Shown here in pieces: positions 9,539 to 12,931 of a DNA stretch of 43,531 nucleotides. The position numbers and the translations under genes are program-made. The notes below the pieces were generated by a model. The model did no database searches. It was not told where the DNA came from and saw only the letters and a program-made list of their open reading frames with translations. Numbering within the stretch: the stretch's first letter is position 1; each line of letters opens with the position of its first letter. The DNA is from Mycobacteriales bacterium (GTDB lineage: Bacteria > Actinomycetota > Actinomycetes > JAFAQI01 > DASSKL01): contig DASSKL010000090.1 of assembly GCA_035690485.1 (NCBI GenBank), positions 1 through 43,531 of the forward strand. The letters run 5' to 3'.

Positions 9539-10591
9539 TCAGCAGTGCGGCACGCGGTCCGGATGCGTCCCGAGGTCCTCCAAGGCCTGCACCGCGCCGG
9601 CCAGCGTCGTGATCCTCACCAGCCGCACCCCGTCGGGTGCCGTGCTGCGCGCCCCGGCGCAGTCGCCGGCCGGGACCAGGAACACCTTGGCCCCGGCGCG
9701 CGCCGCCGCGACGACCTTCTGCTGCACGCCGCCGATCGGCCCGACGTTGCCGTCGGTGTCGATCGTGCCGGTGCCGGCCACGAACCGGCCTCCGGTGAGC
9801 GACCCCGGTGTCAGCTTGTCGATCAGCCCGAGGGCGAACATCGTGCCCGCGCTCGGCCCGCCGACGTCCTGCAGGCGGATGTCGACGCTGAAGGGGAAGT
9901 CGTGCTTCACGACCGGCGCGAAGCCGACGACCGTACGCCGCTGCGCCCCGGTCCCCGCGACCGTCGTCGTCACCGCCTGCTGCAGCGTCTTGCCGTCACG
10001 CTTGATCGTGAGCTTCAGGACGTCACCGGGCTGGTGACCCGTGATGATCGTCCGCAGCTGCTTCTCCGAGGTGATCGGCTGCCCGTCGATGCTCTCGATG
10101 ACGTCGCCGGTCTTGAGCACCTCGGCGGCCGGGGCGCTCTTCGTGATCTCACCGACCGCGACGACGGTCTTGACCGGGATGTGCAGGTAGGTGAGCGCCG
10201 CGGTCACGGCGTTCTCCTGCGACTGCTGCATCTCCTGGGCGTTCTCCTGCTGCACCTGGTCGACGTTCTCCCCCGGCGGGAAGATCAGCTGCTCGGGCAC
10301 GACGGCGGTGTCGCGGTCGAACCAGTCGGCCAGGGCGGAGAACAGCGTCGGCTGGTGCCTGGGGTCGCCGACGACCGACACCGTGGTCAGCGCGAGCGTC
10401 CCCTCGGTGGGGTAGGTCGGATGGCCCTTGACCACGATCAGCGGCTGGTCGGTGCCGGGCTCGTTGCCGAGAGTGTTGGTGATCGGTCCGGGTTGCAGGG
10501 CGACATAGGGCACCGGCAGCACGCTGCCGACGACGCCGAGGATCACCAGCGCCGTCGCCGCCACGATCAAGGTCAGCGCGCGCCGGGACAC
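9539..10591 (-). CDS. YlbL-like PDZ-Lon serine protease
   Basis: The 350-residue protein has one N-terminal membrane anchor (residues 6-30), the YlbL-family segment VPYVALQPGPITNTLG, a PDZ domain (about 135-205, with GDVIESIDGQPI) and a C-terminal Lon-type protease domain. The catalytic dyad is visible: Ser247 in GGPSAGT and Lys292 in VQQKVVAA. Orthologues are found throughout Actinomycetota and Firmicutes and are thought to degrade membrane-associated or exported proteins on the outer face of the membrane. The gene is followed on the same strand, 63 bp later, by the sensor kinase. From memory the mycobacterial counterpart is Rv3194c, which has the same kind of neighbours (DUF2342, ThiF-like, ABC1 kinase). 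Confidence 0.92.
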   Translation of the reverse strand: MSRRALTLIVAATALVILGVVGSVLPVPYVALQPGPITNTLGNEPGTDQPLIVVKGHPTYPTEGTLALTTVSVVGDPRHQPTLFSALADWFDRDTAVVPEQLIFPPGENVDQVQQENAQEMQQSQENAVTAALTYLHIPVKTVVAVGEITKSAPAAEVLKTGDVIESIDGQPITSEKQLRTIITGHQPGDVLKLTIKRDGKTLQQAVTTTVAGTGAQRRTVVGFAPVVKHDFPFSVDIRLQDVGGPSAGTMFALGLIDKLTPGSLTGGRFVAGTGTIDTDGNVGPIGGVQQKVVAAARAGAKVFLVPAGDCAGARSTAPDGVRLVRITTLAGAVQALEDLGTHPDRVPHC

Positions 10592-10653: not shown

Positions 10654-11043
10654 TCAGGACGCGAAGAACGCCAGGCCGCGCCGGCCGTTGCTCGAGTGCT
10701 CCTCGCGAGCGGCCGGCACCATCTCCTCGACCGGCTCGTCGGCAGCGACCTCGGCGACGGGCTCCTCCGCCGCATCCGCGACCGGCCCGGCCGGCTCGTC
10801 GGCCACCGGCACGGCGACCGGCACGGCGGCCTCCGCGGGGGCCGCGCCGACCTCGACGCGGTAGTAGGGCCGGAACGCCAGCGGGACCTCCGCCAGCGCG
10901 TAGGCCGAGACCTCGCTGACGCCCTCGACGTTGCGCAGGTGCTCGACGAAGCGGACCGCCTCGTCGAGTGACGGCAGCCGCCGGAAGGCCGGCCCGCCGT
11001 CCGCACCCGGGAAGAACACGACGTGCTCGCTGCGGTTGTCCAT
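10654..11043 (-). CDS. Uncharacterised 129-residue actinobacterial protein
   Basis: The start ATG is fixed by a GGAGGG ribosome binding site 8 nt upstream. Residues 1-62 form a compact globular part with VVFFPGADGGPAFRR, a helical SLDEAVRFVEHLRN and LAFRPYYRVEV. The rest is an Ala/Pro/Glu-rich low-complexity tail ending in GRRGLAFFAS. I recognise similar small proteins next to YlbL genes in actinobacteria but know no function. No membrane segment or signal peptide is present, so it should be cytoplasmic. It lies upstream of the YlbL gene on the same strand, with a weak hairpin between them, and is divergent from the tethered sigma factor gene. Confidence 0.75.
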   Translation of the reverse strand: MDNRSEHVVFFPGADGGPAFRRLPSLDEAVRFVEHLRNVEGVSEVSAYALAEVPLAFRPYYRVEVGAAPAEAAVPVAVPVADEPAGPVADAAEEPVAEVAADEPVEEMVPAAREEHSSNGRRGLAFFAS

Positions 11044-11261
11044 GACGAGACCCTCCAGTGCGCGTGCGGTGCCTGTGCGTGCTCCCCTGGTAGTCGGCAT
11101 CGCGAAATCCCCGATTGAGCGAGGGGCGCTACGACCGTGATGCGCCCGAATGAACTTCGGACACCCGAGGGCAAAACGCGCAACCTCCCGTGACCTCTGG
11201 AGCGGCGGGTCGTTTGATGAGGCGCTGAACTCCACCCCGCGCAATCGGAGAGCCCACCCCG

Positions 11262-12482
11262 ATGACACCTGCCGCCACGGCGACCGAGGCTGCGGTCCTC
11301 CTCGACGAGCCGGCCGTCGACGAGCGCGCTCTCGTCGATGACGTCACCGTCGATGCACCGCCGCGGCTGGTCCTGGTCCCCGACACCGAGGACGAGCCGG
11401 CCGGGTTCGACTTCGAGCTGGCCCTGCAGGACGCATCGGTGCGCATGCGCCGCTACGCCGTACGCCGCCTCTACCACGACGCCGACGCCGACGAGATCGT
11501 CCAGGAGGCGATGCTCCGCGCGCTGCAGCACCGCTCGCGGTTCGCGTCCGCCGACGACCTGCACGCCTGGCTGACCGTCGTCACCGGGCACCTGGTCATC
11601 GACCGGATCCGCCTGCGGGGCAAGGCGACCCCGGTCGCCGAGCTGCCGAGCGGCAGCCGCGTGGCCCGCGACACTGCCGACGTCGTCGTCGCCCGGCAGG
11701 AGGCGCGGGTCGCGCTCGACGCGCTCGAGGCCATGCCGACCCGCCAGGCGGCGGTGCTGTGGGCCCGCGAAGTGGAGGGCCTCGACTACGCCGCCATCGG
11801 CACCCGCTACGCGCTGTCCGAGGCCTCGGTCCGCTCGCTGCTGCACCGGGCCCGCAAGACGTTGCGCCGGGAGTACGCCGCCCGCGGCGGCACCCTGCCC
11901 GCCGGTGGTCTGGTCGTCCTGGCGCCGTGGCTGCACCCGCTGCGCGCGCTGACCAGACTGCGCAACTCGGCTCGCCGGTTGGCCGGGCCGGCCGCATCGG
12001 TCGCGGTGATCGCCGCCGCGGGGCTGGTCCCGGCGCTGTCGCAGCACGCGCGGGCGCCCCAGCCGGTTCCCGCCGTACGCCTGCCGCTCGCCGCGGCCGA
12101 GGCGCCGGCGGCGCAGCCGGCCACCACTGCGGCGACGTCGCCCGCCGCGACCCCGGCCGCAGCGACCCCCACGCAGCCGTCGGCGGCCGGTCCGATGATC
12201 GGCCTGCCCGTGAAGCTGGAGTCGGTGCACGCCTGCTCGTCGGTCTCCGCGACCGTCGTCGGCGTCAACTGCCTGTCGACGCAGGACCAGCCCCGCATCT
12301 ACGTCGGCCCCTCGCTACCCGGCAACCCGACCGGCGTCCAAGGGCTCGCCATCGAACACAGCTCGCTCAACTGTCAGCTAGTCCCCGCCACACTGCTCAC
12401 GAAGTGCACCCAGGACGGCAGCGCCCCAGCCAGCCAGCAGGGCATCCTCCCGGTGCTCTCGACCCGCGGAGAGTCCCGATGA
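11262..12482 (+). CDS. ECF-like sigma factor with C-terminal membrane segment and cysteine-bearing tail
   Basis: The first half is a sigma-70 family protein. Region 2 spans about residues 55-120 (DADEIVQEAMLRALQH, then LHAWLTVVTGHLVIDRIR), and region 4 about 150-205 with the helix-turn-helix DYAAIGTRYALSEASVRSLL. Instead of ending there, the protein continues through a linker to a hydrophobic stretch (about 242-261) and a roughly 145-residue Ala/Pro/Thr-rich tail. The tail contains four cysteines (near 325, 337, 371 and 382), which would sit outside the cell. ECF factors are normally about 200 residues and held by a separate anti-sigma factor, none of which is encoded here. The stop overlaps the start of a tiny secreted protein gene (ATGA). 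Release from the membrane by proteolysis is a plausible but unproved control. Confidence 0.85.
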   Translation: MTPAATATEAAVLLDEPAVDERALVDDVTVDAPPRLVLVPDTEDEPAGFDFELALQDASVRMRRYAVRRLYHDADADEIVQEAMLRALQHRSRFASADDLHAWLTVVTGHLVIDRIRLRGKATPVAELPSGSRVARDTADVVVARQEARVALDALEAMPTRQAAVLWAREVEGLDYAAIGTRYALSEASVRSLLHRARKTLRREYAARGGTLPAGGLVVLAPWLHPLRALTRLRNSARRLAGPAASVAVIAAAGLVPALSQHARAPQPVPAVRLPLAAAEAPAAQPATTAATSPAATPAAATPTQPSAAGPMIGLPVKLESVHACSSVSATVVGVNCLSTQDQPRIYVGPSLPGNPTGVQGLAIEHSSLNCQLVPATLLTKCTQDGSAPASQQGILPVLSTRGESR

Positions 12483-12679
12483 ACCGTCGCATCAGCCGTC
12501 GCGCGGCCTTGCTGCTCACGACCGGCGCCATCCTCGCCGGCGGTGCCGCAACCGCCGCCGCCGCCAACGCCGTCACCGTGCCCGGCGTGCCGGGCCTGCC
12601 CGGTGGTCAGCAGCAGACCTGCGTCGTGCTGCTCGGCAGCGGCAACTCGGTCGTCGACCGGGTCTGCGTCGCCTACTGA
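12479..12679 (+). CDS. Tiny secreted protein coupled to the tethered sigma factor
   Basis: The 66-residue product has a clear signal peptide: MNRRISRRAALLLTTGAI carries a twin-arginine-like n-region, then a hydrophobic core, and Ala-rich cleavage sites near AAAANA. The mature part is about 38 residues, begins with a short GVPGLPGG turn-rich stretch and contains two cysteines (QQTCVVLL and DRVCVAY) that may form one disulfide. The ATG overlaps the stop codon of the upstream sigma factor, so the two are translationally coupled. No homologous family is recognised. Because both the sigma tail and this peptide carry cysteines and face the outside, this peptide could be a partner or signal for the tethered sigma factor; that is inference. 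Confidence 0.7.
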   Translation: MNRRISRRAALLLTTGAILAGGAATAAAANAVTVPGVPGLPGGQQQTCVVLLGSGNSVVDRVCVAY

Positions 12680-12718: not shown

Positions 12719-12931
12719 CTAGTGGTGCGCCGACTCCTCCATGCCGGCGCGTCGCTGCGCCGGTGGCCGGGGGGCGGCGCCCATCGCGAGGCGGAACTTC
12801 TCGTAGGCCGCGACGCTCTCGCTCGCGTCCTGCGGGCCACGGGGTCGCGCCGACCAGTGCGCCCACGCCGTCGCCAGCAGGACCGCGAGCAGCGGGATCC
12901 CGAGCCAGGCGACGTTCGACACGCTGTGCAC
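12719..12931 (-). CDS. Small single-pass membrane protein
   Basis: The 70-residue protein starts at GTG. It has one N-terminal hydrophobic helix (NVAWLGIPLLAVLLATAWAH, residues about 6-25) followed by a polar cytoplasmic part with ESVAAYEKFRLAMGAA and a His-His end. Proteins of this size and layout occur near moaE in other actinobacteria, but no function is known to me. It lies 46 bp downstream of moaE on the same strand and probably shares its transcript. The hydrophobic N-terminus and the helical charged tail argue that it is a real gene despite its length. Confidence 0.7.
   Translation of the reverse strand: MHSVSNVAWLGIPLLAVLLATAWAHWSARPRGPQDASESVAAYEKFRLAMGAAPRPPAQRRAGMEESAHH

Follow-up and report, generated by a model that had tools for sequence, protein, structure and literature searches.

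A putative self-tethered ECF sigma factor encoded with an exported two-cysteine peptide in uncultured actinobacteria

Known tethered sigma factors and comparison with the present locus

The usual explanation for membrane-tethered ECF sigma factors involves a fused anti-sigma (zinc-finger) domain. In the RseA-RseB system, cleavage of the membrane regulator is controlled by a separate extracytoplasmic protein that binds the regulator's exterior part. The MucA-MucB complex (PMC7400510) is the counterpart of this pair. ECF52 (SCO4117 of Streptomyces coelicolor), together with ECF48 and ECF53, combines a C-terminal membrane helix with an exterior extension and positive autoregulation, and proteolytic release has been proposed; in ECF52 a zinc-finger domain (pfam13490) lies between the sigma domain and the helix, and a carbohydrate-binding module lies outside (PMC5826349, PMC8999054). 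In IutY (ECF243) of Pseudomonas putida, sigma factor and membrane part also form a single protein, whose release by Prc and RseP has been shown (PMC8999054). Finally, the Streptomyces ECF factor BldN drives the production of chaplins, amphipathic proteins that are secreted to the surface and whose long forms are sortase-anchored (PMC4255298).

The window analysed here, a stretch of DNA of 43,531 nucleotides, contains a gene for a 406 aa protein (11262..12482, forward strand; ORF call, Pfam and orthologue alignment) that is an ECF sigma factor by the features tested and is predicted to be self-tethered. Like ECF52, ECF48 and ECF53, it is an actinobacterial ECF sigma factor with a predicted C-terminal membrane helix (placed after the sigma domain by hydropathy and charge) and an exterior extension. 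Unlike ECF52, it has a small unit with four cysteines as its exterior part, and its operon also encodes an exported peptide (pep1). The ECF52 zinc finger gave no match in the 23 members of the present family at E-values up to 0.1, and no Pfam match to an ECF52-type carbohydrate-binding module was obtained in their tails; as these are two defining parts of ECF52, the protein was not filed under that group.

The remaining systems differ in other respects. IutY contains a known anti-sigma protein as its fusion partner and receives its signal from an outer-membrane receptor, neither of which was seen in the window system, and an IutY-type FecR-like anti-sigma domain gave no Pfam match in the 23 members. 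In RseA-RseB (and MucA-MucB) the role of membrane protein falls to the anti-sigma factor; in the present system the sigma factor itself would take that role, with a mini-peptide as its partner. BldN resembles the window protein as an ECF sigma factor driving small secreted proteins, which in the present case is suggested by promoter sites; however, the anti-sigma factor of BldN is a protein of its own, RsbN, and the window sigma factor has none that is recognisable. A chaplin domain was not matched in Pfam at E-values up to 1 in 23 pep1 sequences and five sequences of pep2, the unlinked second peptide described below. The pairing of sigma factor and peptide, and their regulon, were absent from the literature searched, which excluded the main ECF classification (NAR 2021), where the sigma domain may already have a group number.

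Architecture and conservation of the sigma factor and pep1

Whole-genome and GTDB searches yielded 23 distinct species-level sigma-plus-tail proteins, comprising the window protein and its orthologues, the aligned orthologues being 39-50% identical overall to the window protein. Sigma region 2 (residues 62-119; 11445..11618, forward strand; PF04542, Sigma70_r2) and sigma region 4 (residues 152-201; 11715..11864, forward strand; PF08281, Sigma70_r4_2) score above cut-off in the window protein and are matched in all 23, while regions 1 and 3 gave no Pfam match in any of them, an arrangement that places the family among the ECF (group 4 sigma-70) factors. The nearest solved structures are SigE (the best, at E 5.8e-18) and other ECF sigma factors; the NCBIfam equivalog models among the matches listed all fell below cut-off for the sigma protein. 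The sigma core is strongly constrained, with dN/dS values of 0.06-0.21 in close pairs. No anti-sigma or zinc-finger domain was matched by Pfam in any of the 23 members. Weaker sigma matches were also observed in several genomes (G012:C142, G022:C75, G045:C29 and others), with alignments extending past residue 290, so that these genomes may encode additional ECF sigma factors carrying a C-terminal membrane extension.

Region 4 is followed by a basic stretch and then by the sole candidate membrane segment of the protein (residues 241-259; 11982..12038, forward strand), which has a mean Kyte-Doolittle value of 1.81 and is flanked by five K/R residues on its N-terminal side and two on its C-terminal side. 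Hydropathy and charge across 24 proteins predict a single segment with the N-terminus inside, values at the matching position of the other proteins ranging from 1.59 to 2.11; the segment is Ala/Gly-rich and of moderate hydrophobicity only, near the usual threshold. Next comes a Pro/Ala/Thr-rich linker that is predicted to be disordered (residues 260-324; 12039..12233, forward strand; alignment, and AlphaFold2 pLDDT below 50 at residues 255-339). A compact end with a four-cysteine domain follows (residues 325-382; 12234..12407, forward strand), in which AlphaFold2 predicts three strands (345-348, 362-365 and 380-383) at middling confidence (block pLDDT 69-84). The tail contains exactly four cysteines (325, 337, 371 and 382), all of which have counterparts in each of the 23 aligned proteins, with a slight displacement of the third in L006. 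Pfam and NCBIfam recognise nothing in this tail, which evolves fast (dN/dS 0.37-1.27 in close pairs). We infer with good support that the protein is anchored in the membrane, with the sigma domain in the cytoplasm and the tail outside.

Directly downstream in all 23 cases lies pep1 (12479..12679, forward strand), a 66 aa exported peptide composed of a signal peptide and a predicted beta-hairpin, with strands at 46-52 and 58-65 that each carry one cysteine. These cysteines, 48 and 63, are invariant in the 23 sequences, and the four-nucleotide ATGA overlap between the two genes is kept in 20 of them. Most close pairs give pep1 dN/dS values below 1, mostly 0.3-0.7, with a few pairs above 1. Neither pep1 nor pep2 has a match among Pfam/NCBIfam families. 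The full layout of sigma factor, membrane segment, four-cysteine tail and downstream two-cysteine peptide is thus common to 23 of 23, and this domain order and its conservation are established at the level of the alignment.

The preliminary description of this DNA had proposed a self-tethered sigma factor with a hydrophobic stretch, a four-cysteine tail and an ATGA-overlapping gene for a 66-residue exported two-cysteine peptide, and it held up well in these respects. Sigma regions 2 and 4 are recognised by Pfam, a helix candidate is present at 241-259, close to the 242-261 first suggested, the tail and the small gene are retained in every homologue of the set, and the small gene co-occurs with the sigma gene in other genomes and is missing where the latter is missing. 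Self-tethering gains support from the single segment with its positive-inside charge and from the finding that none of the 23 proteins has a recognisable anti-sigma domain. The same description had suggested the peptide as partner or sensor. A partner role gains indirect support: cassette behaviour (see below) favours it, and once the sigma core is accounted for, the divergence of the tail still correlates with that of mature pep1 (partial r 0.34, permutation p 0.001), the neighbouring 129 aa gene serving as a control at 0.11 and 0.09. However, the pep1 signal peptide correlates with the tail almost as much (0.29, p 0.01), so that the co-divergence is weak and no specific proof of contact, and part of it may be a lineage effect.

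The named source records of the orthologues are Frankiales/Frankiaceae-type MAGs, except for one labelled Mycobacterium sp. (L012/L050, genome G033), and the carriers are mostly uncultured soil actinobacteria. The gene order is widely kept, namely an S16-PDZ protease, a 129 aa gene, the sigma gene with pep1, a 70 aa membrane protein, MoaE and a Zincin_2 metallopeptidase. In sigma-less genomes from the same taxonomic order (G002, G003, G006 and G007), the 129 aa and 70 aa genes adjoin and sigma and pep1 are both absent; hence, sigma and pep1 behave as one cassette. The divergent 129 aa gene (10654..11043, reverse strand; no Pfam match) and the gene for the 70 aa small membrane protein (12719..12931, reverse strand) belong to the older locus and are not sigma-specific. 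As both occur in sigma-less relatives, they were ruled out as dedicated anti-sigma genes, and no anti-sigma gene was found at the window locus, in agreement with the preliminary description. The neighbouring PDZ and Lon-type (S16) membrane protease (9539..10591, reverse strand; PF13180, PF05362) was considered as a putative site-1 protease and rejected as a dedicated one: its position is shared with sigma-less genomes, so that its adjacency to the sigma gene is no evidence. M50 (site-2) protease genes are present in the genome, as candidates only for the proteolytic release that the preliminary description had proposed. In the Mycobacterium sp. record the sigma factor has a diverged four-cysteine tail without the LP core, and pep1, the 70 aa gene, pep2 and a clear promoter were not detected, indicating that the sigma factor can exist without pep1.

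Promoter, second peptide and putative regulon

ECF promoters typically present an AAC-type -35 and a CGT-type -10 element. Alignment of the orthologue upstream regions revealed an ECF-type promoter of the sigma-pep1 operon, which in the window reads CGTGACCTC-N12-GTCGTTT (11189..11215, forward strand) and lies 73 nt before the start codon. Its consensus, CGnRAS-N16-CGTT, is located 67-80 nt 5' of the orthologue start codons, and its spacing does not vary in 21 of 22 upstream regions, 19 of which also match the strict pattern. In the window itself, the promoter is among the weaker copies (leave-one-out p ~0.012). A control search with a spacer one base longer returned four matches, equal to the reversed control (4). 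The placement of an ECF-type promoter before the sigma gene implies that the sigma factor autoregulates.

The promoter motif search also led to pep2, an unlinked gene for an exported peptide of 44-61 residues, with a mature part of about 25 residues, two cysteines and a typical core of CVxxxxxxNGTxxxVxQC. In the window's own genome it is located at G000:C60:11141-11302 (L179), with the promoter CGCGACGTTCGGTGGGGACGGCCGTTA. Neither this second mini-peptide nor the autoregulatory promoter that it shares was part of the preliminary description. A profile search detected pep2 in 12 of 118 genomes, all 12 with the sigma system (G009, where the sigma tail is visible but cut by the contig end, was counted as sigma-bearing), and six further copies were present in GTDB genomes chosen only for holding the sigma gene. 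A sigma-type promoter precedes pep2 in all 18 copies considered (L179, L169-L178, L180-L185 and L187), at 66-85 nt. Co-occurrence of sigma and pep2 among the 60 relatives screened for both gives a hypergeometric p of 3.5e-11 (1.6e-9 if G009 is taken as sigma-less), and the pep2 promoters give p-values of 2.5e-5 to 0.014 each against a masked null, with a combined p of 4.7e-11 for the six later copies; kinship between genomes makes all of these values too small, although the direction is clear. Some genomes with sigma and pep1 (G023, G298, G299 and G306) yielded no pep2. The dN/dS of pep2 is mostly 0.15-0.6. Homology between pep1 and pep2 was considered and rejected, their profiles matching only in and just after the signal peptide; profile comparison gave no significant match among the tail and the mature parts of pep1 and pep2, and the two peptides are consequently regarded as similar in build and are not called related.

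A refined version of the motif matched 39 times in 62.8 Mb from 19 sigma-bearing genomes versus twice in 50.9 Mb from 14 sigma-less genomes (p 1.6e-8), a roughly 16-fold higher density, and 23 versus two matches (p 8e-5) remained without the sigma and pep2 sites, the significance of both p-values being inflated by genome relatedness. The reversed control produced six and two matches, respectively. These rates are taken from the refined pattern only, as the loose pattern also matched sigma-less genomes and coding sequence. Several remaining sites lie approximately 50-75 nt 5' of genes with clear signal peptides. These genes encode a PKD-subtilase (L205), a secreted protein of the 300 aa class present in three genomes (L203, L204 and L209), a large one present in two (L207 and L210) and a third two-cysteine mini-peptide (L197, G012:C99; 61 aa). 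The motif also precedes the gene for a small secreted cysteine-containing protein (L206, G303:C127; 95 aa), which, like L197, has no Pfam match. Other sites, situated inside coding sequence, are probably due to chance. A regulon of secreted mini-peptides and proteins under the tethered sigma factor appears well supported by these promoter matches.

Two further observations concern related promoters. A CGTAAC/CGCAAC variant precedes a sortase gene (L160, G000:C5:56830, Pfam Sortase), a gene for a similar protein (L164, G004:C169) and, in several genomes, genes for large (~480 aa) secreted proteins (variant set L160, L161, L163, L164, L166 and L168); these sites may belong to the same regulon or to that of another ECF sigma factor. 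In addition, a gene for a TetR-type-looking regulator carries a near-identical promoter copy in one genus (L149, G011:C78; L150, G005:C61).

Possible roles of the exported peptides

With no recognisable anti-sigma or zinc-finger part, either tethering alone suffices or an exterior partner matters, and pep1 is the natural candidate for such a partner given its coupled translation, its presence and absence with the sigma gene, and the tail-peptide co-divergence. The explanation that we prefer, drawn entirely from sequence analysis and to which we assign a probability of roughly 0.55 as a whole, is that of a self-anchored sigma factor held by pep1 from the exterior, released by proteolysis and serving a regulon of secreted products. 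A single membrane helix, followed by a flexible linker, would connect the cytoplasmic sigma domain with a small exterior domain of disulfide type, and the protein would be made with pep1 as one translationally coupled unit. Exported pep1 would dock on the exterior domain and keep the sigma protein uncut and inactive, filling outside the cell the role that an operon's anti-sigma gene usually has. An envelope or secretion condition would then alter the contact between pep1 and the domain, and stepwise proteolysis would free the sigma domain to transcribe its own operon, the unlinked pep2 and, depending on the lineage, other secreted proteins. By analogy with RseB acting on RseA, we favour pep1 as a holding partner; its role as a surface product is the main rival, and that of an activating ligand the boldest reading.

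As a surface product, pep1 would, together with pep2, be an output of the system: small surface or structural proteins of chaplin-like size and cysteine count, switched on by the tethered sigma factor, the place of pep1 in the operon reflecting co-regulation and nothing more. This is a tentative but serious alternative, as pep2 is unlinked and best seen as a target, further likely targets include secreted proteins and, under the variant -35, a sortase, and the Streptomyces ECF factor BldN activates chaplins (PMC4255298). Yet pep1 is coupled to the sigma gene in 20 of 23 cases and was not found alone, a pattern more expected of a stoichiometric partner than of a coat protein made in abundance; furthermore, the tail and pep1 co-diverge, and the peptides have no chaplin match in Pfam at E-values up to 1. 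That the peptides are instead activating ligands seems improbable. Such an autocrine or quorum-like circuit, in which a bound mini-peptide triggers release and expression of pep1 and pep2 provides positive feedback, would agree with the one promoter common to sigma, pep1 and pep2 and with the fast evolution of the exterior part (dN/dS ~0.4-1.3 versus ~0.1 for the sigma core), as often seen in ligand-binding parts, but a density signal would not usually be made in equal amounts with its receptor from a single operon, and mature pep1 and pep2 have no detectable homology.

The tether itself could also be doubted, since the segment is rich in Ala and Gly and its Kyte-Doolittle means (1.6-2.1) are close to the customary threshold; the protein would then be soluble, an ECF sigma factor whose cysteine-rich regulatory tail lies in the cytoplasm as in the metal-sensing CorE type, and the hydrophobic stretch would be no membrane helix. 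We consider this the least probable of the readings, because the segment occupies one conserved place in every protein examined and has positive-inside charge, the length and Pro/Thr/Ala content of the linker and the wide spacing of the cysteines are in keeping with an exported domain, and the partner peptide is exported. A more far-reaching and rather unlikely conception is that of a one-protein transmembrane switch, in which the four-cysteine domain is the receptor for the two-cysteine beta-hairpin peptides of its own operon and regulon. Without any anti-sigma factor, this would give an autocrine circuit or one by which the cell monitors its own secretion and disulfide formation.

Returning to pep1 as a holding partner, the silencing of a tethered sigma factor without a recognisable anti-sigma domain needs another account, for which the exported peptide is the obvious candidate. 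The sigma factor, the peptide, the promoter and the second peptide make up a compact module, defined enough for transfer to a laboratory actinobacterium. The system also brings to light families of very small secreted peptides of disulfide type, which have no Pfam match and are near or below the usual gene-finder length. Finally, it suggests that these actinobacteria may sense conditions outside the cell by means of a single protein.
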